Positions 5,189 through 25,016 of a DNA stretch of 64,000 bases are shown here, in pieces. Below the pieces are notes generated by a model that was given only the letters and a program-made list of their open reading frames with translations, did no database searches and was not told where the DNA came from. The DNA lies in contig NZ_JANZKW010000001.1 of the NCBI RefSeq assembly GCF_027257935.1, positions 248,001 through 312,000 of the forward strand, written 5' to 3'. A program made the position numbers and the translations under genes. This stretch comes from Chitinimonas sp. BJYL2. GTDB lineage: Bacteria; Pseudomonadota; Gammaproteobacteria; Burkholderiales; Chitinimonadaceae. Position 1 is the first letter of the stretch, and every line of letters starts with the position of its first letter.

Positions 5189-6769
5189 CTACTTGGGCAC
5201 CACGCCTTCAAAGTTGTTATTGGTGAACGGATTCGGTTTGAACCCGGTCACCCCCTTGAGGAAAGCCACGCTGTTGAGCGGCTCCACCAGGGTTGCCCAC
5301 GGCGATTCGTCAATGAAGATCTGCTGGGCCTGTTCGTACAGCTTGGTGCGCTCCTTGATATCGGTTACGCGCTTGGCCTTGTCGATCAGGCTATCGAACT
5401 GCTTGTTGCACCAGCGCGAGCGGTTCTCACCCGACTCAGCGGCGGCGCAGCTGAGGTTAGGGGTGAGGAAGTTGTCGGGGTCGCCGTTGTCGCCGGCCCA
5501 ACCGTACAGCGTCACATCATGTTCGCCGGCCTTGGTACGCTTTTGCAGTTCCACCCACTCGAACAGCACGATCTTGGCGTCCACGCCGATCTTCTTCCAG
5601 TCGGCCTGCATCATCTCGGCAGTCAGCTTGGGATTCGGGTTCGAGCCCATGGCCGAATTGCGCACGAAGATGTTCAGCGTCAGGCCCTTCTCGTAACCCG
5701 CTTCCTTCATCAGCTTGCGGGCCTTGTCGAGATCGCGCTTGGGCGCCGGAATGCTGCGGTTGTAGCCCCACATCTTGGCCGGCAGCGGCAGGTGCGCCGT
5801 GGCGGCATTGCCCTCGTACACCACCTTGGAGATGGCGTCCTTGTCGAGCGCCAATGCCAGCGCCTGACGCACGCGCTTGTCCTTGAGGTGCGGCTTCTGG
5901 GCATTGAAGGCCACATAGGCCAGCAGCAGCGCCGGGTGCTGTACGACCGTGATCTTGGGGTCCTGCTTGAGCGAAGCAATATCGGCGGGCTTGAGGTCTT
6001 CCATGAAGTGGCACTCGCCGCGCTTGAGCTTTTGCGCGCGTACCGAGGCATCTTCGGTAATCGCGAAGATCAGCCGGCTGGCGGGCTGCTTGCCACGCCA
6101 GTAGTTGGGGTGCGCCTCGTAGCGTACCTGCGCGCCCTTGTCGTAACGCTTGAACACGAAGGGGCCGGTGCCCACGGGCTTGAGGTTGATGTCGCCGGGA
6201 CGGCCGGCCTTTTCCAGCTGCTGTGCGTACTCGGCCGACACCACATCGGCAAAGCCCATGGCCAGGTTGGCCAGGAACGGGGCTTCGGGCTTGGTGAGGA
6301 TGAACTTCACCGTATACGGATCGACCTTGTCGATACGCTTGATCAGCTCGGGGAAGCCCATGTCCACCGCGTAGGGCCAGCCTTGCGGACTGGCTTTGTG
6401 GCCGGGATGCTTGGTGTCGATCATGCGCAGGAAGGTCCAGAGCACATCGTCGGCATTGAAGTCACGCGTGGGCTTGAACCATTCGGTGGTGTGGAACTTC
6501 ACGCCTTTACGCAGATAAAAGGTGTACTCCAGGCCATCCTTGCTGACATCCCAGCGCTCGGCGAGGCCGGGGATGACCTTGGTGCTGCCTTTGTCGAACT
6601 CGGTCAGGCGATTGTAGATGGCCTCGGTGGACGCATCGTGGGTGGCGGCAGCCGTGAACATGCCGCCGTCGAAGCCTTCGGGCGCGGCAGACGAGCAGAA
6701 CACCAGCGGCTTGGCGTGCAGGGTGGCGCTCAGGGCCAGGGAAGCCAGCGCAATATGGGTCAGTTTCAT
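5189..6769 (-). CDS. Periplasmic peptide-binding protein, family 5, divergent DppA paralogue
   Basis: 526 aa from ATG 6769 (MKLTHIALASLALSA, signal peptide ending near AKP). It is a family-5 extracellular binding protein of an ABC transporter: PGLAERWDVSKDGLEYTF, KPTRDFNADDVLWTF, GTGPFVFKRYDKGAQVRY and GWAGDNGDPDNFL are shared with DppA. In DppA and in the two paralogues upstream the specificity region reads WAMPVQRPYNPNA; here it is FVRNSAMGSNPNP, so its ligand probably differs. It has no lipobox and is therefore soluble in the periplasm. It follows the second paralogue by 59 bp that contain a hairpin. No permease or ATPase genes are in the window. Confidence 0.88.
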   Translation of the reverse strand: MKLTHIALASLALSATLHAKPLVFCSSAAPEGFDGGMFTAAATHDASTEAIYNRLTEFDKGSTKVIPGLAERWDVSKDGLEYTFYLRKGVKFHTTEWFKPTRDFNADDVLWTFLRMIDTKHPGHKASPQGWPYAVDMGFPELIKRIDKVDPYTVKFILTKPEAPFLANLAMGFADVVSAEYAQQLEKAGRPGDINLKPVGTGPFVFKRYDKGAQVRYEAHPNYWRGKQPASRLIFAITEDASVRAQKLKRGECHFMEDLKPADIASLKQDPKITVVQHPALLLAYVAFNAQKPHLKDKRVRQALALALDKDAISKVVYEGNAATAHLPLPAKMWGYNRSIPAPKRDLDKARKLMKEAGYEKGLTLNIFVRNSAMGSNPNPKLTAEMMQADWKKIGVDAKIVLFEWVELQKRTKAGEHDVTLYGWAGDNGDPDNFLTPNLSCAAAESGENRSRWCNKQFDSLIDKAKRVTDIKERTKLYEQAQQIFIDESPWATLVEPLNSVAFLKGVTGFKPNPFTNNNFEGVVPK

Positions 6770-6828: not shown

Positions 6829-8421
6829 TTACTTTACCGAGACGCCGGTGAACTGCATGGTGCCGAAGGGGCTGATCTTGAAGCCCTGCACCTTCTTGCT
6901 CATCGGCACGTTGACCACCGAATGGGCCACCGTGGTCCACGGAAGTTCCTGCTTGAAGATTTCCTGGGCCTTTTCATACAGGGCGGTGCGCTGCTTCACA
7001 TCGGCCGTCTGCTTGCCCTTCATGACTAGATCGTCAAACGGCTTGTGGCACCACTGCGAGTAGTTGTTGCCACCCACGGCATCGCAGCTCAGGTTCACGC
7101 CCAGCCAGTTGTCGGGGTCGCCATTGTCGCCGGTCCAGCCGACCAGGATCGCATCGTGCTCGCCGTTCTTGGCGCGCTTGAGGTACTCGCCCCATTCAAA
7201 AGTGGTGATCTTGGCCTTGACGCCGATCTTGGCCCAGTCGGCCTGGATCATTTCAGCCATCAGCTTGGCATTGGGGTTGTAGGGGCGCTGTACCGGCATG
7301 GCCCACAGGGCCAGCTCGAAGCCATTGGGGAAGCCGGCCTTGGCCAGCGCAGCCTTGGCGGCATCGACGCTGTAGGCTTGATCCTTGAGCTTCTTGTTGT
7401 ACGACCACTGCGTCGGCGGCATCGGGTTGGTGGCCGGCTGGCCGGAGCCGGCGTACACGGCCTCGATGATGGCCTTCTTGTTGATGGCCATGTCGAGCGC
7501 GCGGCGCACGGCCACGTTATCGAGCGGCTTGTGCTTGACGTTGTAGCCCAGGTAACCGAGGTTGAAGCCGGCCTGCGACATCACATTGATCTTGGGGTCC
7601 TTCTTCAGCACTTCGATGTCGGAGGGCTTGGTCTGGAAGGCGATATCGCACTCGCCGGCCTTGAGCTTTTGCGCACGCACGGCCGAATCGGTGGTGATGG
7701 CGAAGATCAGGTTATCGACCTTGATATCGACCTTGTTCCAGTACGCCTTGTTGGCGGTGAAGCGGATCAGCGCGTCCTTCTGGTAGCTCTTGAACGCGAA
7801 CGGGCCGGTACCGATGGGCTGGGTGTTGAGTTGCGAGGCCTTGCCCGCCTTGAGCAGGGTGTCGGCATACTCAGCCGAGTGGATCGAGGCAAACGACATG
7901 GCCAGATTGGCGATAAAGGCGGCATCCACCTTTTTGAGCACGAACTTGACCGTGTGAGGGTCGAGCTTCTCGATCTTGGCGATATTGGCATCCATGCCCA
8001 TATCGGTGAAATACGGGAACTCGCTCGGGTAGGCCTTGCGGAACGGGTGATCCTTGCTGAGCATGCGCTCGAAGGTAAAGACCACATCGTCGGCATTGAA
8101 ATCGCGCGTGGGCTTGAAGCTGTCGTTGCTGTGGAACTTCACGCCCTTGCGCAGCTTGAAGGTGTATTCCAGACCATCCTTGCTGATGTCCCACTTCTCG
8201 GCCAGACCGGGGGTCACGTTGGTCGCACCGCGCTCGAACTCGACCAGACGGTTGAACACCGGCACGGCCGAGGCATCGAAATCTGTCCCTGCCGTGTACT
8301 GACCGGGGTCGAAACCGGCCGGACTACCTTCGGAACAGTATTTCAGGGTACCGGCTGCGTGGGTGTACCCGGCTGCGAGCGCAGCAGTCAGGGCGAGCGA
8401 CAAGGTGGTCAGACGCTTCAT
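6829..8421 (-). CDS. dppA: Dipeptide-binding protein DppA-like, paralogue 2
   Basis: 530 aa from ATG 8421, where a typical signal peptide begins (MKRLTTLSLALTAALAAG, cut near THA-A). The mature start TLKYCSEGSPAGFDPGQYT, the ALWAMPVQRPYNPNAKLMAE segment and GWTGDNGDPDNWL follow E. coli DppA closely, so binding of dipeptides, or haem as some DppA proteins do, is plausible. The same-strand SDR gene upstream ends with its own terminator, so a promoter should lie in the 241 bp between them. It is the first of a two-gene unit with the divergent paralogue downstream. No transporter partners are nearby. Confidence 0.92.
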   Translation of the reverse strand: MKRLTTLSLALTAALAAGYTHAAGTLKYCSEGSPAGFDPGQYTAGTDFDASAVPVFNRLVEFERGATNVTPGLAEKWDISKDGLEYTFKLRKGVKFHSNDSFKPTRDFNADDVVFTFERMLSKDHPFRKAYPSEFPYFTDMGMDANIAKIEKLDPHTVKFVLKKVDAAFIANLAMSFASIHSAEYADTLLKAGKASQLNTQPIGTGPFAFKSYQKDALIRFTANKAYWNKVDIKVDNLIFAITTDSAVRAQKLKAGECDIAFQTKPSDIEVLKKDPKINVMSQAGFNLGYLGYNVKHKPLDNVAVRRALDMAINKKAIIEAVYAGSGQPATNPMPPTQWSYNKKLKDQAYSVDAAKAALAKAGFPNGFELALWAMPVQRPYNPNAKLMAEMIQADWAKIGVKAKITTFEWGEYLKRAKNGEHDAILVGWTGDNGDPDNWLGVNLSCDAVGGNNYSQWCHKPFDDLVMKGKQTADVKQRTALYEKAQEIFKQELPWTTVAHSVVNVPMSKKVQGFKISPFGTMQFTGVSVK

Positions 8422-9496: not shown

Positions 9497-11086
9497 TTAC
9501 TGGAGCGATACCCCGGAAAAACTCATGCGGCCAAACGGGCTGATCTTGAAGTCCACCACCTTGCGGTTCATGGGCACGCTGACCACCGAATGGGCAATCG
9601 TCGACCAAGGCATGGCCTGTTTGAAGCGTTCCTGCGCCTTCATGTAGATGGCGGTGCGCTTCTTCACATCGGCCGTCTGCTTGCCATCCAGCACCAGTTT
9701 GTCGAACTCCTTGTCGCACCATTGCGAGTAGTTACCGGCGCCCACGGCGTCGCAACTGAGGATGTTGAGCCAGTTGTCGGGATCGCCGTTATCGCCGGTC
9801 CAGCCGAACATGCCGGTATCGGCCTCGCCCTTCTTGCCACGCTTGAGGTATTCGGCCCACTCATAGGTGGTGATCTTGGCGGTGACGCCGACCTTGGCCC
9901 AATCGGCCTGGATCATCTCGGCCATCAGCTTGGCATTGGGGTTGTAGGGGCGCTGCACCGGCATGGCCCAGAGGCCGATTTCCAGTTGCTTCACGCCCGC
10001 CTTGGCGAGCAGCGCCTTGGCTTTCTCGGGGTTGTAGGGTGCGTCCTTGAGGTTCTTGTTATACGACCACTGCGTCGGCGGCATGGGGTTGGATGCTGCA
10101 ATGCCGGTACCTTGGTACACGGCCTCCAGAATCGCCTTCTTGTTGATCGCCATATCGAGCGCCTGGCGCACCTCCAGCTTGTCCAGCGGCTTCTTGGTCA
10201 CGTTGTAGGACAGATAGCCCACATTGAAGCCGGGCTGCGACGCAATCACGATCTTGGGATGGCCCTTGGCAGCCGCCAGATCAGCGGGCTTGGGCATGAA
10301 GGCAATATCGCATTCGCCGGCCTTGAGCTTTTGCACCCGCACGGCGCTATCCGGCGTGATCACGAAGATCAGCTTGTCGAGCTTGGTCTCAGCCTTATTC
10401 CAGTAGGCCTTGTTGGCGCTATAGCGGATGACCGAATCCTTGTCATAGCGCGTGAACACGAAGGGGCCAGTACCGATGGGCGCGCTGGCAATCTGTGCCG
10501 GTTTGCCGGCCTTGAGCAAGGCATCGGCATATTCAGCCGAGTGGATGGACGCAAAACCCATGGCCAGATTGGCGATGAACGCGGCGTCGATCTTCTTGAG
10601 CGTGAAACGGACGGTATAGGGGTCCACTGCTTCCACATTGGCGATGTTCTGATCCATCCCCATACTGGTGTAGTAGTGGAACTCGGCCGGGTAAGCCTTG
10701 TTATAAGGATGCTCGCGCTTGCCCATGCGCTCGAAAGTGAACACCACGTCCTGCGCATTGAAATCGCGTGTGGGTTTGAAGGCCTCGTTACTGTGGAACT
10801 TCACCCCGCGGCGCAGATGGAAGGTGTACTGCAAGCCATCCGGGCTCAGCGTCCATTTCTCGGCCAGACCCGGCACCACGGCCGTGCCACCACGCTGGAA
10901 CTCCACCAGGCGGTTGAACACCGGCTGCGACGAGGCATCGAAATCCGTGCCCGCCGTAAGCTGACCGGGGTCGAAACCTGCGGGACTGCCTTCGGAGCAA
11001 TACTTGAGCGTGCCGGCGGCATGGGTAGTGGCGCTGGCGGCAATCAGGGTAGCCAAGATCAGGCTGGGGCGGACATAACGGTGCAT
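9497..11086 (-). CDS. dppA: Dipeptide-binding protein DppA-like, paralogue 3
   Basis: 529 aa starting MHRYVRPSLILATLIAASA, a signal peptide ending near HAA-G. It is close to paralogue 2 throughout: the same GTLKYCSEGSPAGFDPGQ start, PPTQWSYNKNLKD, AMPVQRPYNPNAKLMAEMIQ and GWTGDNGDPDNWL. It lacks a lipobox. The SDR gene follows 66 bp downstream on the same strand and may be co-transcribed. The near-identical blocks in paralogues 2 and 3 suggest a tandem duplication into which the SDR gene was later placed, or which formed around it. Transporter partners are absent, so it may share a permease encoded elsewhere. Confidence 0.92.
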   Translation of the reverse strand: MHRYVRPSLILATLIAASATTHAAGTLKYCSEGSPAGFDPGQLTAGTDFDASSQPVFNRLVEFQRGGTAVVPGLAEKWTLSPDGLQYTFHLRRGVKFHSNEAFKPTRDFNAQDVVFTFERMGKREHPYNKAYPAEFHYYTSMGMDQNIANVEAVDPYTVRFTLKKIDAAFIANLAMGFASIHSAEYADALLKAGKPAQIASAPIGTGPFVFTRYDKDSVIRYSANKAYWNKAETKLDKLIFVITPDSAVRVQKLKAGECDIAFMPKPADLAAAKGHPKIVIASQPGFNVGYLSYNVTKKPLDKLEVRQALDMAINKKAILEAVYQGTGIAASNPMPPTQWSYNKNLKDAPYNPEKAKALLAKAGVKQLEIGLWAMPVQRPYNPNAKLMAEMIQADWAKVGVTAKITTYEWAEYLKRGKKGEADTGMFGWTGDNGDPDNWLNILSCDAVGAGNYSQWCDKEFDKLVLDGKQTADVKKRTAIYMKAQERFKQAMPWSTIAHSVVSVPMNRKVVDFKISPFGRMSFSGVSLQ

Positions 11087-12559: not shown

Positions 12560-13357
12560 ATGCGCTTGCTGCCCTTGCTGGCCTGTCTGCTGAGCACCAG
12601 CGCCATTGCCTACGCCCAATCACTCTGCCTCGATCGTCCCATCCACTTTGCCCACTACGAGTTCGGCCTGATCTACGCCGAGGGTAAAGGCGGTATTGAT
12701 GACGATGTGCAGAAGGAACTGGCCAGACGCAGCGGCTGCGCATTCAAGACCACCCTGCAGCCGCGCGCGCGAACCTGGTTTGAACTGGAAAGTGGCTCGG
12801 TGGACATGGCGGGATCCGGTGTGCAGACGCCAGCGCGTGATGCCTTTGCCTGGTTTGAGCACTACGTGATCGAGGTCAATCAGGTCGTCATCGGCCCCAA
12901 GGTACCCGCCCAGGTGCGCAATATGGATCAGTTCATTGCGACCCCGGCGCTTACCATTGGCGGCGTTCGCTCCTTCAGCTACGGGTCTTACTATGACCGC
13001 TACGTGAAGTTGCTGGATGCGCAAAACCGCTTCTACAACGCAGCCGATTCGCGCATGGTCTACCAGATGTTTGACCGCGGACGTTTCGACATCTTCATCA
13101 CATCGCAGTTCTTGTCGCAGTTCTACTTCCGCGAACTCAAGATCCCTATTGCAAAGCGGATCGAGAACTGGGATCCCGGCAGCGGCACACCTAGCGGGCT
13201 GGTGTTATCGAAGAAATCGTTCACGCCCGAACAGGCGCGCGGCTGGCAGGAGATGATCCGCAAGATGCGCGAGGACGGCACGCTGCGGGCGATTCTGGCA
13301 AAGCATCTGGGCAAGGAGCTGGGTGCGCAGTCGATATATGTACCGCCCGCCAAGTAA
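12560..13357 (+). CDS. Family-3 periplasmic solute-binding protein (orphan)
   Basis: 265 aa with a signal peptide (MRLLPLLACLLSTSAIAYA-QS). The body resembles amino-acid-type binding proteins: an early YEFGLIYAEGKGGIDDDVQKELARRSG segment, LQPRARTWFELESGSVDMAGSG typical of the ligand-proximal loop, and a C-terminal MIRKMREDGTLRAILAKHLG helix. Its ligand is unknown. No permease is adjacent; it faces ybaK across 12 bp. It lies 0.6 kb from a cluster of three similar proteins around a chemoreceptor, so a sensing role is possible as an alternative to transport. Confidence 0.8.
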   Translation: MRLLPLLACLLSTSAIAYAQSLCLDRPIHFAHYEFGLIYAEGKGGIDDDVQKELARRSGCAFKTTLQPRARTWFELESGSVDMAGSGVQTPARDAFAWFEHYVIEVNQVVIGPKVPAQVRNMDQFIATPALTIGGVRSFSYGSYYDRYVKLLDAQNRFYNAADSRMVYQMFDRGRFDIFITSQFLSQFYFRELKIPIAKRIENWDPGSGTPSGLVLSKKSFTPEQARGWQEMIRKMREDGTLRAILAKHLGKELGAQSIYVPPAK

Positions 13358-13883: not shown

Positions 13884-13916
13884 GGCGGCCACCCACTGCC
13901 CAAGCGGGTGGCCGCA
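13884..13916 (-). terminator. Probable terminator of the binding-protein/chemoreceptor cluster
   Basis: GCGGCCACCC (13886-13895) and GGGTGGCCGC (13907-13916) form a 10-bp stem with an 11-base loop; on the minus strand CTTGTTAA follows, a weak T-tract. It is 20 bp past the stop of the last gene of the cluster. Confidence 0.6.
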
Positions 13917-13936: not shown

Positions 13937-14701
13937 CTATTTGAAACTGGCCACGGCCTTCTTGTACTCCGGAGACTCCCGCACGGTGGCGACGGTCTGC
14001 CAGACCTCTTTGGCAAATGCGCCGTTCTGTGCAACCAGTTGTTTGGACAGCATCAGGTAGTAGGGCTTTTCAACCAAGGGAGGTGAGACCTTTTCCACCT
14101 TGCCTGCAAACTCCGGCAGACGGATCGAGTTCTCGCCTTCCAGTGTCTGCAAGGCTGCCGCACCCAAACGACCTGCCGCCAGCTTGCGCAGCGTGTCGTC
14201 GGCGCTGCGCGTGCCATCATCCACCCGCACGCCCATCCCCTTGAGTTGATCCACCACCGAGTAACCCTGTTGGGCACCCACCGCACCATTGAGGTTGCTG
14301 ATGGTTTTGCCATCAAAGCTCACCGTACTGCCTTTGGCGCGGAACAAGGTGTAGCCATCCATCATCATATGCTTGCTCTCATCGGGCTTGTCGCCGCCGC
14401 CAGGGTAAACCCCAAGCGCCAGGCGATCCGGCTTGAAGCTGGCAGCGAAGGCACCATCCATATTGCCTTGGCGCATCTCATCGAGGCAGCGTGCCCAGGG
14501 GATGCGGTGGAACTCGAACTTGGTGCCCAGCTTCTGCGACACCATCTTCAGCTGGACGATGTTCAGTCCGTCGCGCCCATCCACCACCCATGGGTAGACC
14601 TCGGTACTGTCTACACACAGTTTCAGCATTGCTGGCTTGTCAGCTGCAGAGACGCCGACACCCAGCATGGCGGCTAGCAGAAATAGCATTCGCATCTTCA
14701 T
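13937..14701 (-). CDS. Family-3 periplasmic solute-binding protein (cluster member 1)
   Basis: 254 aa with a signal peptide (MKMRMLFLLAAMLGVGVSAA). The domain begins LKLCVDSTEVYPWVVDGRDG and has EFHRIPWARCLDEMRQGNMDGAFAAS, the recognisable ligand-loop region of family-3 binding proteins, then a late GYSVVDQLKGMGVRVDDG. It is the last gene of the run binding protein - chemoreceptor - binding protein - binding protein, with 33 bp to the previous one, and no permease or ATPase. It could deliver a ligand to the chemoreceptor encoded two genes upstream, or to a distant permease. The ligand is unknown. Confidence 0.8.
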   Translation of the reverse strand: MKMRMLFLLAAMLGVGVSAADKPAMLKLCVDSTEVYPWVVDGRDGLNIVQLKMVSQKLGTKFEFHRIPWARCLDEMRQGNMDGAFAASFKPDRLALGVYPGGGDKPDESKHMMMDGYTLFRAKGSTVSFDGKTISNLNGAVGAQQGYSVVDQLKGMGVRVDDGTRSADDTLRKLAAGRLGAAALQTLEGENSIRLPEFAGKVEKVSPPLVEKPYYLMLSKQLVAQNGAFAKEVWQTVATVRESPEYKKAVASFK

Positions 14702-14734
14702 GTTCCTTGTCGGTAGGGGACGATGCCGCCAGGA

Positions 14735-15490
14735 CTAGCCACCCAAACGCTTGTCCATGATGGCCTTCACGTCGATCTTCTTGAGACCTTCGTTGAATAT
14801 CTTGGCTATGCGCTGGCCCTCGGCATCCTTCTTGAAGCAGACGAACAGCTTCTTGTCCTCCAGCAGCTTGGCGTTCATGGCCAGCTTGCCTGCAAAGGGC
14901 TTGAGATCGGGCTGGGTTTGCAGCAGGTAGCGGAACACATTGGCATCCACCACCGCAAGGTCGATACGGCCATTGCCCAGTTTTTGCAGGTTCTTGCCAT
15001 CGTCCATGGCCACATCCACCCGCTGCTGCTTGGCCGCGACGCGCGCATCGAATTCGGTGGTGTTCACATAGTCCTGCACCACGCCGACCTTCTTGCTGGC
15101 CAGATCGGCAATGCTGCTCCAGGTGTAGGGCGCATCCACCCGCTGGGCCAGACCCAATGGGCCCGAGCCCATGGGGTCGGACAAGTGGAAGTCCTTGCGG
15201 ACTTCGGGTGAGTCGTATTCCGGGAAGTAGCCTGCGTAGCCGGGGTCACTCTTGGCAAGCTGCACAGCCCGGCTCCAGGGATAAAACTCCACCTTCAGCT
15301 CGTAGCCCATGGCTTTGAAGGCGGCTTTGGCGACCGCCACGCTGGCCCCCTGCTCTGTCAGCTTGGCACCGGTGTAGGGCGGCCAATCCAGCGAGGTCAG
15401 CTTGACGACCTTGGTCTCAGCCAGCACCGGGGCGGCGATCAACAACGAAGCCAGCAGCGGCCCACACGACTTGCGCAACAATTCCAACAT
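14735..15490 (-). CDS. Family-3 periplasmic solute-binding protein (cluster member 2)
   Basis: 251 aa from ATG 15490, which has AAAGGAG five bases upstream; in-frame codons up to 15505 overlap the chemoreceptor stop. A signal peptide ends near LAE-TK. The body has LTSLDWPPYTGAKL, VEFYPWSRAVQLAKSDPGYAGYF (ligand loop) and a C-terminal RIAKIFNEGLKKIDVKAIMDK. The start codon is 12 bp downstream of the chemoreceptor stop, so the two are almost certainly co-transcribed. This is the strongest positional case for a binding protein that works with a chemoreceptor. The ligand cannot be read from the sequence. Confidence 0.82.
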   Translation of the reverse strand: MLELLRKSCGPLLASLLIAAPVLAETKVVKLTSLDWPPYTGAKLTEQGASVAVAKAAFKAMGYELKVEFYPWSRAVQLAKSDPGYAGYFPEYDSPEVRKDFHLSDPMGSGPLGLAQRVDAPYTWSSIADLASKKVGVVQDYVNTTEFDARVAAKQQRVDVAMDDGKNLQKLGNGRIDLAVVDANVFRYLLQTQPDLKPFAGKLAMNAKLLEDKKLFVCFKKDAEGQRIAKIFNEGLKKIDVKAIMDKRLGG

Positions 15491-15501
15491 GGCGACTCCT
15501 T

Positions 15502-17031
15502 TCAAACCTTGAATTGCTCGACGGCGTTCTGCAACTGCACCGCCAAACGGGCCACCTCCTCGGCGGAAATGGAAGTCTGGCGAGCGCCATTGGCGGCTTC
15601 GCTGACCACTTTCTGGATATTGCGGATGCTGTCTGTTACGCCATCAACCGATTGATCCTGCTGGGCCGAAGCGGCAGCAATCTCCTCATTGATGGCGGCA
15701 ATGCGCCGGGCCGATTCAGCCAGATGTTCAATGGTGCTGCCGGCATCCCGGGCGCGATTGAGGCCTTCCTCGGCGCGATCACGGCTGCTGTCCATGGCCA
15801 TGACAGCGCGAGTGGTACCCTGCTGCAGCTCGGTGATGACCTGCTTGATCTCGGTGGTGGAGTCATGGGTGCGGTTGGCCAGCACCCGCACCTCATCCGC
15901 CACGACCGCAAAACCGCGCCCTGCCTCGCCGGCTCGCGCAGCCTCAATCGCGGCGTTGAGCGCCAGCAGATTGGTCTGCTTGGCAATTTCGTTGATGACT
16001 TCCAGCACGGTGCCGATCTTGGCGCTATTGGCTTCCAGCTGGGCAATCACCTCGGCAGCAGCCTCCACTTCGCGCGCGGCGTTGCCGATGGTCGAGATGG
16101 CGTTGTTGACGACCGCCTGGCCTTTATCGGCCTCGACATTGGCAAAGTTGGCGGCATCCGCCGCTTGATTGGTATTCACGGAAATCTCGTGGACCTGGCG
16201 GCTCAATTCTGCCGCCGCCACCACTACGGCTTCGCTCTCCTGCTGCTGAAGCTGGATACCGGCACTGCTGGCCTCCATGATGCGGCTGGTCTGTTCGGCC
16301 GCGGCAGCCAGCTGTGGCGCAATCTCGGCCACCTGACGCATCACACCCTGAAGGCGCTCCACAAAGAGATTGAACGAGCGCGATACCGCCGTGAACTCGT
16401 CATCTCCGCGCAAGGTAAGGCGACGGGTCAGATCGGCATCGCCGGAGGCAATTTCGCGTAGCGCCTTGCTCAGCTGGTTGAGTGGCCGGAGCACCACGGC
16501 ACTGAGGCTGAACGACAATGCCACCAGCAAGATGATGTCGACCACCAGAATCTGGATCACCAGCACCGTGAGGTTCTCGCGCAGCGCGTCCTCCACGCCT
16601 TGCTGCGAGACAAAGATTTCGGCAACCCCCACGCTCTTCTTGGTGCCTTCATCATTGAATTCGAGGGGCACTTCCTGCTTGCTGCCGGGAATCACGGCCG
16701 CCAGTTCGGCCTTGGTGGTCTTGCCATCCTCCCCTCGCATCAGGCCGGCAATGGAGTCCTTGCCATTGCGCAAACGGATCCCGTTGAAGGTCCGGGACAC
16801 CATTTCGGCCTCCAGCACCTGGCCAATCTGGTTCTTGTCGAAGTTCCAGATCGCGGCTGGCAAGCTGAGCTGCAGCCGCACGGCCAAGGCATCGGCCTGT
16901 TCCTTGAGGCCCTGTTCCAGACGCTGCTTGGTGGACAGGTAGTTGTAAGCACCCAGCGCCAGCAGCACGAGGCTGATCACCAGCACAAAGATGAGGTTAA
17001 GCCGCCAGCTGATGCTCTTGTTGAATTTCAT
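15502..17031 (-). CDS. Methyl-accepting chemotaxis protein flanked by binding-protein genes
   Basis: 509 aa from ATG 17031 (a GTG at 17040 is in frame). TM1 is near residues 12-30 ([20 protein letters not shown]), the periplasmic sensor is about 125 residues with [20 protein letters not shown], and TM2 is near 155-180. A HAMP domain and the signalling domain follow, with the conserved tip [20 protein letters not shown] and [15 protein letters not shown]. There is no C-terminal CheR-tethering pentapeptide. The periplasmic domain is short and may be served by the binding proteins encoded on either side. It is 92 bp downstream of the previous binding-protein gene. Confidence 0.93.
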
Positions 17032-17093
17032 GATGCCCACCCATTGAAGGCTTGCCGACGTGGTGACAGGTTCGTTGTTATCCGGTCCTCATC

Positions 17094-17111
17094 AGGGGGC
17101 ATATGCCCCCT
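17094..17111. other. Perfect 18-bp palindrome between binding-protein and chemoreceptor genes
   Basis: AGGGGGCATATGCCCCCT is a perfect inverted repeat 13 bp past the binding-protein stop and 63 bp before the chemoreceptor start. There is no T-tract. It could be a weak terminator or mRNA-stabilising hairpin, or an operator. Confidence 0.45.
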
Positions 17112-17123
17112 GTGGGCGCCGTT

Positions 17124-17852
17124 TTATTGGTATTTCTTGCCGATCCGGTCAGCCGTGCCATCCTGTTTGACGGCTTTGACGGCATCGTTGAGTTTGCGGA
17201 TGACGTCATCCGCCACACCGGGATTGCAGGCCAGATACATATGCGCATCCTTGGGGTCGCCTACGGTGATCACGGGCTTGATCTTCAGGCCGCTGCCCTC
17301 GCGGGAAACCTTGTAGGGGCCGCTCTTGGCCCCTGCCACCCAAAGATCGATACGGCCCGCCGCCAGCTTGGGCAGATTGAGCGAATCACTGGGCACGCGG
17401 TCCAGCTTGATACCCTGCTTCTCCACGAAGTCCCCATAGGCATCGCCGTTGTAAGCGCCCACCTTGTAGCGCTTGGCATCGGCGGGTGAACCCAGGGCGA
17501 TGTTGCTGTCGGCACGCGCAAACAGGGTGATGTCGTCACCGACCAGCGGGCCGATCCACTTGAACTGTTTTTCGCGTTCGGCGTTACGCACGGCGGAGTA
17601 GACGCAGACATCGGCCTGCTTCTTGGCCATATCGAGGGCGCGCTCCCAAGGCAGCAGCTCAATGTTGGCCGAGAGACCTGCGCGCTTGAGTGCATCCTGA
17701 AGGATCTCGGTCGAGATGCCACTGACCTTGCCATCGCTACCCTTGAGGTTGAAGGGCGCATAGTCCTCGGTCACGAACTTGAGCGCAGAAGCCTGAACCG
17801 CCACCAGGCCCAGCAAGGCCACCTGACAGCAACGGGTCGTCACTGAACGCAT
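17124..17852 (-). CDS. Family-3 periplasmic solute-binding protein (cluster member 3)
   Basis: 242 aa from ATG 17852, preceded by GAAGGAG; the longer reading to 18008 adds 52 residues with no signal sequence and is rejected. The signal peptide ends near ASA. The body shows VTEDYAPFNLKGSDGKVSG, ELLPWERALDMAKKQADVCV and EKQFKWIGPLVGDDITLF, typical of the polar amino-acid/polyamine type of binding protein. It is the first gene of the chemoreceptor cluster and is divergent from selO across 135 bp. Its ligand is unknown and its permease is absent. Confidence 0.85.
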   Translation of the reverse strand: MRSVTTRCCQVALLGLVAVQASALKFVTEDYAPFNLKGSDGKVSGISTEILQDALKRAGLSANIELLPWERALDMAKKQADVCVYSAVRNAEREKQFKWIGPLVGDDITLFARADSNIALGSPADAKRYKVGAYNGDAYGDFVEKQGIKLDRVPSDSLNLPKLAAGRIDLWVAGAKSGPYKVSREGSGLKIKPVITVGDPKDAHMYLACNPGVADDVIRKLNDAVKAVKQDGTADRIGKKYQ

Positions 17853-21204: not shown

Positions 21205-23040
21205 TTAACTGTGCGCGGGCTCCAGCGCAAAGAAGCGGACCAGCTGGTGCAAGGATTCAGCCTGTACCCGCAGGTCTGCTGCAATATGCGCCAACTCCTC
21301 GGCCGTACCTGCATTCTCCTGAACAGACTGGGATATCTGCCCCAAGGCGATATTGATTTGCTGGGTGCCGCCCGACTGCTCGGCACACGCCGCACTGATG
21401 GCGGAAACGAGTTCCGAGGTGCGTTTCACTGCGGGTTCGATCGCCGCCAGCATGGCTTGCGCCTGTTGCGTGGTTTGCACACCTGTGCGTGCCACCTCGG
21501 CCACCTCCCGCGCGGCGGCCGCTGCATGTTCGGCCAAGCGGCGCACCTCGCCGGCAACCACGGCAAACCCTTTGCCATGCGGCCCGGCACGGGCAGCCTC
21601 AATGGTGGCGTTGAGCGCCAGCATATTGGTCTGGTAAGCGATTTCGTCCACCGCCGCAATCTGCGCTGCCACCGCATGCATCACCGCTACCGCCTCGGTC
21701 ACGACCGTGCCGCCCTCATGAGCCTTGAGGCTGGACTCCCCGGCCAGCACTGCCGTCTGGCGGGCATGGTCGCTATTGGCGCCGATGGCCGAGGCAATCT
21801 GCTGGACGCTTGCCGCAGTTTCCTCGATACCAGCCGCCTGCTGGCCACTGGCAGTCGCCATGGCAAAGGAAGCGCGCTCAAGCTGAAGCGCCGCCTCTAC
21901 CAACTGGTCCGCCCCTTGGTGCAAGGCGGCCGCCGTGCCGCCCAGGCCATGGAGCATGCTCTGCATGGCCGCGAGTACGCTATGTTGATCGCCTTTGCGC
22001 AGGACGATGGTCTGCGCCAGTTGCCCGTGCGCCACGGCATGGGCGATGCGGGCAACCTGTTCAGGTTCGCCACCCAAGGTGCGGCGCAGGCTGGCGGTGA
22101 TGCTCCAGAGCAGCAGTGCCAGCATAAGGGCAAGCAAGCTGGCCGCCAGGACGCTGAGATGAAACCAGTTGCGCAGGTCAGCCTGCGCACGCAGGGCGTC
22201 GTTGCGTATGGTATCGAGCAGGGCCTCGCCCAGCACCTGCAGGCTGCCCAGACGTTCAGATGCAAGTGAGAACCAGCTGGGTGCTGTCACCGGAAAACCG
22301 GCGGGTTCGGCCAGCATGCCGCTGCGCAGCTGCATCAAGCGGGTCAACAACGGCGAGTGGCGATGCTGGTTGTAGGCGGCCAGCAAGGGGGGATCGGCAA
22401 AGTCGGTGAAGTCCGCCTCACAACGTTGCTGACGGGCTAACAGGCCGATCAGTTTGTCACGTTCCCCGCTGGCAAACCGGCCGGCACTGATCACACCATT
22501 GAGCAGCCCACGCTCCTGCGCCGCCGCTTCCTTGAGGCAAAGCAGCCCGAGCAGGGCAAATTGCTGGCGCAGGGTTTCGGCGCGCTGGGTCTTACGGACC
22601 GCGGCCGTGGTGTAGTGCAATTGCGAGGCAATGACTTTGCTGTAGTCGGCAAACAGCGTCGCCGGTGTCGCATTGCGCGCATCCACCTGCTGTCTGAGCG
22701 TCTGGATTGTCTGCGCCATCGGATGTGCCGCTGCCTGCCAGCCCAGTTTCACCAGTGCCGCATCACTGGCCCCGCGTGCCTCTGCGACCGCGCCATCACC
22801 CAGGCGCCCTGCCGCCAGCATGCCGTAGCTCAAGCCGCGCTCGGCCTGCAGCGTATGGGCAAGGCGGCTGGCATCGGTCATCAGATGCGTCTGTCTTACC
22901 GTTGCATCGAGCAAAGCCAGCTGGCGGTCGAGCGTCTGCAGCCAGGGTACAAGCACGCCCAGCAACACCAGCAGGGGCAAGCAGGCCAAGCAACGCAGGC
23001 GGTTGCGAAAACTGAGCACGCGCATGGGGCGCTCGCTCAC
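21205..23040 (-). CDS. Methyl-accepting chemotaxis protein with NIT sensor domain (second of pair)
   Basis: 611 aa with a GTG start at 23040 that overlaps the upstream gene's TGA as GTGA; an ATG at 23025 is possible. TM1 is near residues 15-35. The periplasmic region has the NIT (nitrate/nitrite sensing) signature [19 protein letters not shown], and a later [18 protein letters not shown]2 is near 298-320, with a HAMP-like segment after it. The signalling tip reads [19 protein letters not shown], slightly off the usual [15 protein letters not shown]. Overlap with the upstream NIT chemoreceptor implies coupled translation and possibly paired receptors. Confidence 0.92.
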
Positions 23041-25016
23041 GCGAGGTGGAATCGGCCAACAATGCCAGCCAACTGACCAGACAAGCGATTGAGGTCCTTG
23101 GCCAGCTCTGCCGTCTGGAAGACGGCGCGGCTGTTTTCCTCCGTCATCTGGGCAATCTGCTCGATCTGCTGGGCAACCATCTCGCTGGCATTCTTTTGCT
23201 CGCTCATCGCCAGCGCAATCTCGCGGGCAGCACCCACGGCGCCGGTGGTATCGGTGTCGATCTCACCGAGCGCGGCCGATACTTCACGCACGCCCTCCAC
23301 CCCTTGCTGCATGCGCTCACTGGACGCACGCATGGCCGCACTGGCGGCCTGGGTATCGGCGCGAATGGCGGCAACCAGCTGGCTGATGTCGCGGGTGGCA
23401 CTGCCAGCTCGCTCGGCAAGCTTGCGGACCTCATCGGCGACAACCGCAAAGCCGCGACCGGTTTCACCCGCCCGGGCTGCCTCGATGGCAGCATTGAGGG
23501 CAAGCAGATTGGTCTGGTCGGCAATCTCGCGGATCGTCGCAACAATGCCGTCAATCGCCGCAGAGCGCTGCGCCAACTGTGCGATGGTTTCCGCCGCCTG
23601 CGTCACCGCGGCGTCCACATGCTGCATCTGCGTCGTTGCCGACTCGGTAATGGCCCGACCACGCACGGCACTCTGCTGGGCGTCCGTGGCTTTGCGTTCG
23701 CTATCGCTGGTGGCGGCGGCCATGGTGGCGATGCTCACTGTCACCTGCTCCACCGAAGCCGCGATGCCATTAACCGAATCGGACTGATTCTGCGTAGCGG
23801 CCGAGACCTGCCCTGCGGTATCTGCCAGCGCATCCGAAGCGCCAGCGACATCACCCGCGCACCGCTCCACTTCAAGGATGGAGGCATTGAACGCAGCCAG
23901 CAGGGCATTGAAGGCATGGCCGATGCGGGCGATCTCGTCCGAACCGGTAACCGTTGCCCGCAGCGAGAGATCCATGGAGTCGCGCAGCTGGCTCATCAGC
24001 TGCTCGATGCCCTTGACCGGATCAGCCACCGCATGGCTGATCTGCCAGGCCAGCACGGCGGTCAGCACCAGAATCACAAGGGTAATGCCGATCTGCCACC
24101 ACAAGGCGGCCTCGGCCGATTGCTGGCTGGCGGCGGCCGTACCGCGTATGCGCTCAAGCTGGACATCGCGCACCTCGCGCAGGGCGTCGAGCCGCAGGGT
24201 GGCCGTGGCAAACCACTGCTTGGCATCGACCCCGAAATTTCCCTCGGCCGCTTTGCCGACAGCCAGCTCACGCAGGCGTGCCGTCTCGGCGAACACCGGC
24301 AAGGTCGTGCGTGCGCGGTAGGCCTCCAGCGTGGCGGCATCGGCAAGGGCCACAAACTGGGCCTCGCAGCTTTGCTGTACACCGGCTGCAGCCTGGACCT
24401 TGGCCAGGCTGGCCGGGGCGAACTGGCCCGAGGTGAACACGCTGTTGAGCAGACCTCGCTCGCGCGCCGACTGCTCCATCACGCACAGGAGCGATACCAG
24501 TGACTGCTCATTGCGCATGACTTCGGCATGCTCGGTATCACCCGCAATGCCTTGCGCGAGCTGCACGGTGCCCGTCACCCAGGCGGTGTAGCGATAAAAA
24601 CTCGTCAACGGCGGTACGGCCTTGCTGCTGATCTGGGTACGCAAGCCCGGCAGATCATCCAGGGCGGCTTCCACCGCCGCGAGATTCTTGCTCACGCTGT
24701 CGGGCAGGGTGGTGGTGGCGACATAATCCGCGAGCCGCTTGCGCGCCTGGTCGGTTTTCTGGCGTGCGCCCTGCATGGGGGCACTGTCGCCACCCGACAG
24801 ATAGCCTGCGCTGGTACCGCGTTCTGCCTGCAACGCCAATGCCAGATCGCTGGTGTGGCCCAGCAACTGGGTCAGCGATACGGTGGCCCGCATGGCGCGA
24901 GCCGTGTGCAGGCTGTCAAGCATGACCACGCCCACCGCCAGCAGCAAGGCGATGACCGGCACACTGACCAGCAAGACCAGCTTGCTGCGCACACTGATGG
25001 ATGAAAGGTGCAACAT
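23037..25016 (-). CDS. Methyl-accepting chemotaxis protein with NIT sensor domain (first of pair)
   Basis: 659 aa from ATG 25016 with GAGGAG eight bases upstream. TM1 is near residues 12-32. The periplasmic NIT domain is marked by [20 protein letters not shown] and [20 protein letters not shown]2 is near 315-335 ([18 protein letters not shown]), followed by HAMP and a full signalling domain with [20 protein letters not shown] and [18 protein letters not shown] domains are linked to nitrate/nitrite sensing, but the ligand is not proven here. It is the first gene of a two-receptor operon and divergent from paiB. Confidence 0.93.

Follow-up and report, generated by a model that had tools for sequence, protein, structure and literature searches.

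A stretch of 64,000 nucleotides from a Chitinimonas genome of 3.45 Mb (hereafter the window, whose positions serve as coordinates throughout) carries a small gene cassette in which a methyl-accepting chemotaxis protein (MCP) is followed by two solute-binding proteins (SBPs), SBP_B and SBP_C. We propose that this MCP-SBP_B-SBP_C cassette encodes a binding-protein-dependent chemoreceptor, whose SBPs would dock on the sensor domain of the MCP, and we assign this reading a probability of roughly 0.68. It builds on the gene content of the cassette, its conserved linkage amid changing flanks, the recurrent pairing of the same sensor domain with permease-less SBPs, and the fold of SBP_B. Two further SBPs, SBP_A and SBP_D, lie next to the cassette. 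In the following, genomes, loci and families are referred to by labels beginning with G, L and f, respectively. The genes and the sensor domain are located as follows.

17124-17852, minus strand: SBP_A, family-3 periplasmic binding protein, 242 aa (PF00497, 61.0 bits)
15502-17031, minus strand: MCP, chemoreceptor of 509 aa with transmembrane segment, sensor domain, transmembrane segment, HAMP and MCPsignal domains (PF00672, 48.6 bits; PF00015, 156.3 bits)
16537-16944, minus strand: periplasmic sensor domain of the MCP, residues 30-165 (start of the second transmembrane segment included), PAS-like, with the motif RL...P..WNFD
14735-15490, minus strand: SBP_B, family-3-like SBP, 251 aa, start ATG at 15490 (assigned from linkage and a structure model)
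13937-14701, minus strand: SBP_C, divergent family-3-like SBP, 254 aa, third gene of the cassette (PF00497, 23.2 bits, below cut-off)
12560-13357, plus strand: SBP_D, family-3 SBP between YbaK and KASIII (PF00497, 33.1 bits)

Read 5' to 3' on the minus strand, the genes follow the order SBP_A, MCP, SBP_B and SBP_C, with intergenic gaps of 92, 11 and 33 bp. The initial annotation had described this same-strand order of a binding protein, a chemoreceptor and two more binding proteins, with a tight spacing between the receptor stop and the second SBP and a fourth, similar binding protein nearby. All of these genes are present as described, the tight spacing being the 11-bp gap, which contains the ribosome site AAGGAGTCGCC, and the fourth gene being SBP_D. 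The stated lack of transport partners was also borne out, as Pfam annotation of the flanking genes found no ATP-binding cassette (ABC) permease or ATPase in the neighbourhood of the cluster. The hydrophobic segments of the MCP, at about residues 5-34 and 149-185, enclose about 125 periplasmic residues, in agreement with the size that had been given for this part. Such a small size is not unusual; the informative point is which domain it is. As read from their sequences, the four SBPs each have an N-terminal Sec-type signal peptide that lacks a lipobox, that of SBP_A being MRSVTTRCCQVALLGLVAVQASA.

Five of six congeners, and Parachitinimonas as well, have an orthologue of the MCP (59-73% identical), and the signalling tip is 89-93% identical among these relatives. 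SBP_B directly follows the MCP in all seven genomes that hold it, the window genome included, and SBP_C is part of the cluster in six of the seven; the Parachitinimonas contig stops just past SBP_B. Presence and absence also coincide: among ten genomes of the family, the seven with the MCP all hold an SBP_B orthologue (67-79% identical, or SBP_B itself), while the three without it (G001, G008 and G009) have none, their best identity being 42%. Since the flanks differ among C. prasina/viridis, BJB300, G003, G004, Parachitinimonas and the window, the cassette has been relocated, or its surroundings reshuffled, while MCP, SBP_B and SBP_C stayed together. The gene order claimed for the window is thus conserved for SBP_B and SBP_C and not for SBP_A and SBP_D, and the set of binding proteins around the receptor shrinks to a conserved unit of MCP-SBP_B plus SBP_C. 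None of the relatives examined pairs these SBPs with ABC permeases, and no permease or ATPase was found there near either orthologues or paralogues of the window SBP genes.

SBP_A and SBP_D have histories of their own. In G001, G003, G005 and G006, SBP_A is flanked by SelO on one side and by YbaK and then KASIII on the other, with no MCP there; the window has the MCP-SBP_B-SBP_C block precisely at the SBP_A-YbaK junction. SBP_A is thus the ancestral resident of a SelO-SBP_A-YbaK locus that the cassette entered in the window. G004 carries the genes at an unrelated site, in the order SBP_C-MCP-SBP_B-SBP_A, and has kept a paralogue of SBP_A (54%) at SelO-YbaK. Because SBP_A is joined to the cassette in these two arrangements, a functional gain is hinted at; its linkage to the MCP is confined to the window and G004, and its absence from the cluster in most species speaks against it as a partner. 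The best homologue of SBP_D in the genomes searched is only 37% identical, and the YbaK-KASIII gap of the relatives holds no SBP_D, which is an unrelated local arrival in that gap. With no conserved linkage, SBP_D was ruled out as a member of the module.

With a gathering cut-off of 26.4 bits for PF00497 (SBP_bac_3), SBP_A and SBP_D pass, while SBP_C and, at 21.0 bits, SBP_B fall just under. The model of SBP_B (predicted local distance difference test, pLDDT, 90.5) nevertheless shows a two-lobed type II SBP fold, with 1380 PDB matches at E<=0.001 (best 2.3e-14), among them solved family-3 amino-acid SBPs, the second Venus flytrap (VFT) domain of BvgS (VFT2, 3mpl) and the kinase sensor SBP domain 3h7m. 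A sequence search of the PDB with SBP_C gave no match. In an alignment with cyclohexadienyl dehydratase, SBP_B retains the pattern GR-D-----D, the last Asp of which touches the alpha-amino group of the ligand in many amino-acid SBPs. This is a weak hint that SBP_B may bind an amino acid or an amine. A tandem duplication was considered as the origin of the cluster and rejected: the four SBPs are only 20-28% identical to one another, against about 60-79% between orthologues across species, so that the cluster is no recent duplication.

The sensor domain of the MCP did not reach the cut-off of any Pfam family. Its scores against LapD_MoxY_N (PF16448; 13.2 bits, E 0.084) and CHASE5 (PF17149; 12.9 bits) fall short of cut-offs of 25 and 27 bits, respectively, and two homologues, the MCP of L358 (21.2 bits) and the kinase of L326 (19.7 bits), also stay under the CHASE5 cut-off. 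A sequence search of the PDB with the sensor-domain profile returned no match. The AlphaFold model (pLDDT 78) consists of two helices, one long and one short, and a sheet, and its top PDB match is the LapD-type structure 4u64 (E 1.8e-3, probability 1.00, TM-score 0.59/0.61, root-mean-square deviation 6.8). We thus regard the domain as weakly LapD/CHASE5-like and PAS-like. Because LapD recruits the periplasmic protease LapG (PMC4359373), the nearest fold would be one that serves protein docking, a parallel that is suggestive only. Assignment to the glycerol-3-phosphate-binding sCache family, suggested by the position of the C. prasina cassette near genes resembling glpK/glpD, as judged on their first residues, was set aside, that family being sCache_2-based.

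The same domain recurs next to SBPs well beyond Chitinimonas. A first domain search with nine close rows reached eight genomes, after which the profile was enriched. When the sensor domain alone was searched across 369 genomes of the class, it was found in 14 genomes of nine genera, and in five of these genera (the window, G116, G253, G363 and G347) family-3 SBP genes directly adjoin it. G116 (L284) has an SBP_B-like gene 24 bp before an MCP with the sensor domain. A protein consisting of the sensor and a HAMP domain (sensor-HAMP) precedes an SBP by 49 bp in G253 (L287) and follows one after 32 bp in G363 (L245), while G347 (L325) has two tandem SBPs and then a hybrid histidine kinase with the sensor domain.

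When the enriched profile was run against 398 genomes of the phylum, it matched 16 loci other than those of the own genome, and 13 of these have SBP genes in the same gene string. Eight of these 13, all with a kinase, belong to family f246, and seven of the eight have two tandem SBPs. The others are an MCP with the sensor domain 20 bp ahead of an SBP (G549), an SBP_B-like gene 51% identical to SBP_B followed by such an MCP (G659), SiaA-like phosphatases with the sensor domain in a string with SBP genes (G610 and G640) and a kinase (G615). The three loci without an SBP are two kinases of one genus (G445 and G810) and one contig end (G711). Counted by family over both searches, the pairing occurs in nine of 13 families.

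We then compared these loci with other receptors. In a set of the 30 best MCP loci from G549, G659, G116 and G003, both loci with the sensor domain have an SBP neighbour, compared with none of the 28 others (Fisher p 0.002; 3e-5 when two further MCPs of G549 and G659 are included). SBP_B-like genes are likewise enriched in genomes with the domain (9 of 14, against 20 of 355 others; p=5e-8), also when counted by genus (5 of 9 against 17 of 263; p=2e-4). At the annotatable regions among the 20 other SBP_B-like regions of the class (four gave no call), no permease was found beside the SBP.

Taken together, these data suggest the following mechanism. SBP_B, and probably SBP_C, would be secreted to the periplasm and capture a small nutrient or signal molecule. 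The loaded, closed SBP would then bind the MCP dimer at its small PAS-like sensor domain, and the signal would pass through HAMP to alter CheA/CheW activity and steer swimming, with no involvement of a dedicated ABC permease. Several SBPs per receptor would broaden its ligand range, and SBP_A may be an extra adaptor recruited once the cassette had landed alongside. Periplasmic export, docking, ligand class and signalling outcome are thus what we infer. The idea of a module in which SBPs present ligands to one receptor consequently holds to different degrees for the individual proteins. Its genomic context makes SBP_B a likely partner of the MCP, and the somewhat less complete linkage of SBP_C, fair as support, puts its partnership a little above even odds. 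For SBP_A the context is weak and a partnership is doubtful, whereas SBP_D, being unlinked, is a very improbable one.

Several observations weigh against this proposal. Adjacency is not interaction, and docking between MCP and SBP is a prediction from gene context. The structural support for the sensor domain is modest, given the pLDDT and the best E value of its model. Receptor homologues of 41% identity in G040 and G084 have no SBP neighbours, and the domain also stands without them in G364, in G459 and in an own-genome paralogue (C2:371271). No domain-SBP pairing was seen in f153, f165, f188 and f86, nor in two of the three members of f204. The families are unevenly sampled, f246 dominating the phylum count, and L284 was a row of the enriched profile picked for its neighbouring SBP, although the only one. 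Published precedents call for similar caution. The CHASE5 domain of Pseudomonas aeruginosa AruS and the neighbouring PA4985 were negative in a two-hybrid assay, the domain being insoluble for other tests. AgtS showed no interaction with its two neighbouring SBPs by calorimetry, and the authors concluded that an sbp gene beside a kinase gene does not always imply a functional link between the two (PMC11113362). The AruS/PA4985 pair resembles that of the window in having a small CHASE5-type periplasmic domain near an orphan SBP, and differs from it in that the SBP belongs to SBP_bac_8 instead of SBP_bac_3 and the receptor is a histidine kinase. Side-by-side encoding is found for 10 of 11 characterised SBP-kinase pairs and for only 3 of 11 chemoreceptor-SBP pairs (PMC11113362).

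The PAS-like domain could also bind a small molecule directly, with the SBPs scavenging or buffering that molecule or feeding an unlinked importer in trans. PAS/Cache-like domains are generally known to bind ligands directly often (sCache examples in PMC12395807), the few amino-acid ABC systems with permeases in the own genome (L059 and L061) could use extra SBPs, and several families hold the sensor domain without SBP neighbours. We nonetheless consider direct sensing unlikely. SBPs recur beside the domain on MCPs, kinases and SiaA-like phosphatases, a recurrence that it explains less well than docking does; a shared transport role would lead one to expect permeases somewhere, and none was noticed at those loci. 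Moreover, SBPs do not adjoin the other MCPs of the same genomes.

A second alternative keeps the docking step and changes what follows, with a non-flagellar chemosensory output such as type IV pili or cyclic di-GMP (c-di-GMP). The sharing of the sensor domain with kinases, a GGDEF-EAL protein and SiaA-like phosphatases is compatible with such an output, and 29 MCPs in the genome leave room for more than one output pathway. The signalling domain of the MCP, with its high score and well-conserved tip, is however an ordinary one, and we regard a non-flagellar output as improbable.

Finally, the cluster might reflect the abundance of its parts. Besides its MCPs, the genome encodes at least 33 family-3 SBPs (PF00497 matches), nearly all of them permease-less singletons, and orphan SBPs are so common that a lone one near an MCP is uninformative. 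We therefore placed 29 MCPs and 38 family-3 SBPs at random in 5000 trials. At a distance of 2.5 kb, the probability of three or more SBPs near one MCP was 0.0018, and the observed four were reached in 0 of the 5000 trials, so that the grouping of SBPs around the MCP exceeds chance. Coincidence or an insertion hotspot, though in keeping with these orphan singletons and with SBP_A and SBP_D having been placed here for historical reasons (the YbaK-KASIII gap having received SBP_D), is thus a very remote explanation, largely refuted for SBP_B and SBP_C by a linkage that stayed intact across species despite different flanks and by a pairing that recurs in distant families, and it remains for SBP_D and possibly SBP_A.

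Two hairpins bear on the limits of the transcription unit.

17093-17112, minus strand: 20-bp perfect palindrome or hairpin CAGGGGGCATATGCCCCCTG, just past the SBP_A stop, without a T-run (from the sequence)
13885-13915, minus strand: terminator-like hairpin closing the MCP-SBP_B-SBP_C unit

The palindrome is probably the 3' end or an attenuator of the SBP_A transcript, though it could also be an operator. A folding energy of -36 kcal/mol was obtained for the whole 92-bp stretch that separates SBP_A from the MCP. G003, G005 and G006 likewise have strong hairpins 3' of SBP_A, and G003 has a T-tailed hairpin after SBP_C. Given the hairpins after SBP_A and the terminator-like hairpin after SBP_C, MCP-SBP_B-SBP_C is likely a transcription unit. 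A single operon of SBP_A, MCP, SBP_B and SBP_C was rejected as the conserved unit, as SBP_A is separate in most relatives, hairpins follow it, and the cassette ends in a terminator-like hairpin. No sigma-70-like site came out of a promoter scan of the region, in which terminator-like matches were about as frequent as expected by chance.

The flanks of the cluster comprise YbaK, KASIII, three SBP_bac_5 genes, a short-chain dehydrogenase, SelO, an S41 peptidase and two NIT-type MCPs. The SBP_bac_5 (OppA-like) genes lie on the minus strand between 5189 and 11086 (5189-6769, 6829-8421 and 9497-11086), with no adjoining permease or ATPase. The two MCP genes with NIT (nitrate/nitrite sensing) domains, at 21205-24992 on the minus strand, overlap by a few bases.

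Elsewhere in the own genome, proteins with GGDEF-like motifs are encoded immediately downstream of family-3 SBP genes (L065:2960-6773 and L073:474-3084, both minus strand), another possible SBP-receptor pairing, and for a histidine kinase that weakly matches the sensor domain (L329:4229-8328) the opposite strand carries an orphan SBP one gene away. At the f246 loci (L349-L356), one or two family-3 SBPs overlap or abut the histidine kinase with the sensor domain, and L349 adds an NMT1-like SBP after it. Two loci, L360:841-7158 (minus strand) and L361:3028-8531 (plus strand), combine a SiaA-like phosphatase (sensor-HAMP-SpoIIE), a DUF6272 protein (SiaB-like), SiaC and one or two family-3 SBPs in what may be an SBP-linked Sia switch; the gene string of L360 also includes a hybrid kinase. 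Output-less sensor-HAMP membrane proteins are encoded at L245:6055-6783 (plus strand), L287:4243-5016 (plus strand), L323:1720-2460 (minus strand) and L324:5251-5994 (plus strand). Each adjoins a gene for a protein of 175-196 aa (L245:6830-7396, L287:3647-4174, L323:2673-3263 and L324:4625-5152), for two of which a Pfam search gave no match; an SBP lies next to the sensor-HAMP protein in L245 and L287 only. Together with these neighbours, the sensor-HAMP proteins possibly form a signalling system with a separate cytoplasmic partner.

A broader proposal, which we advance tentatively and at somewhat less than even odds, is that this "WNFD" PAS-like domain is dedicated to the docking of permease-less family-3 SBPs in general. 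Through it, sets of one to three SBPs would serve as exchangeable inputs to chemotaxis, to two-component and Sia-type phosphatase signalling and to output-less HAMP signalling, with mobile cassettes moving the receptor-SBP pair between loci. In the literature searched, which included few subscription journals, we found neither a relocating MCP-SBP-SBP cassette described nor this sensor-domain family presented as an indicator of family-3 SBPs that lack a permease. Most chemoreceptors and orphan SBPs have no known ligand or partner. If the proposal is true, a sensor-domain family would predict the SBP partner from sequence, so that receptor-SBP pairs could be listed for testing across many Pseudomonadota, and some of the abundant orphan SBPs, of which this genome has over 30, would be accounted for. 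The multi-SBP arrangement would also test whether one small sensor domain reads several binding proteins.

Provisionally, then, the mechanism is already known in kind, while this receptor-SBP pairing looks undescribed. The SBPs that serve the E. coli receptors belong to importers encoded elsewhere, and the ligand-binding domain (LBD) of these receptors is a four-helix bundle; by contrast, the Chitinimonas SBPs are permease-less and co-encoded with their receptor, and its sensor domain is PAS-like. Activation of chemoreceptors by SBPs is itself an established mechanism, and all four E. coli receptors with a periplasmic LBD (Tar, Trg, Tap and Tsr) can be activated in this way (PMC9602780).

The archaeal proteins BasB and CosB act as one SBP per transducer, whereas the window has two or three SBPs per receptor, and SBP_A, SBP_B and SBP_C carry Sec signal peptides without a lipobox. 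The genes of BasB-BasT and of CosB-CosT are adjacent, CosB has no transporter, and both BasB and CosB are membrane-anchored. In Halobacterium salinarum, these SBP-like proteins co-purify with their dedicated Htr transducers (PMC3579733). The solved structure nearest to the sensor-domain model, that of the periplasmic part of a LapD orthologue (CdgS9, PDB 4u64), is only about 18% identical to it, the Pfam score staying below cut-off, and LapD differs from the MCP in being a c-di-GMP receptor that signals outward. In BvgS-type kinases, lastly, an SBP (VFT) fold is fused to the receptor, whereas SBP_B is a separate soluble protein of matching fold.

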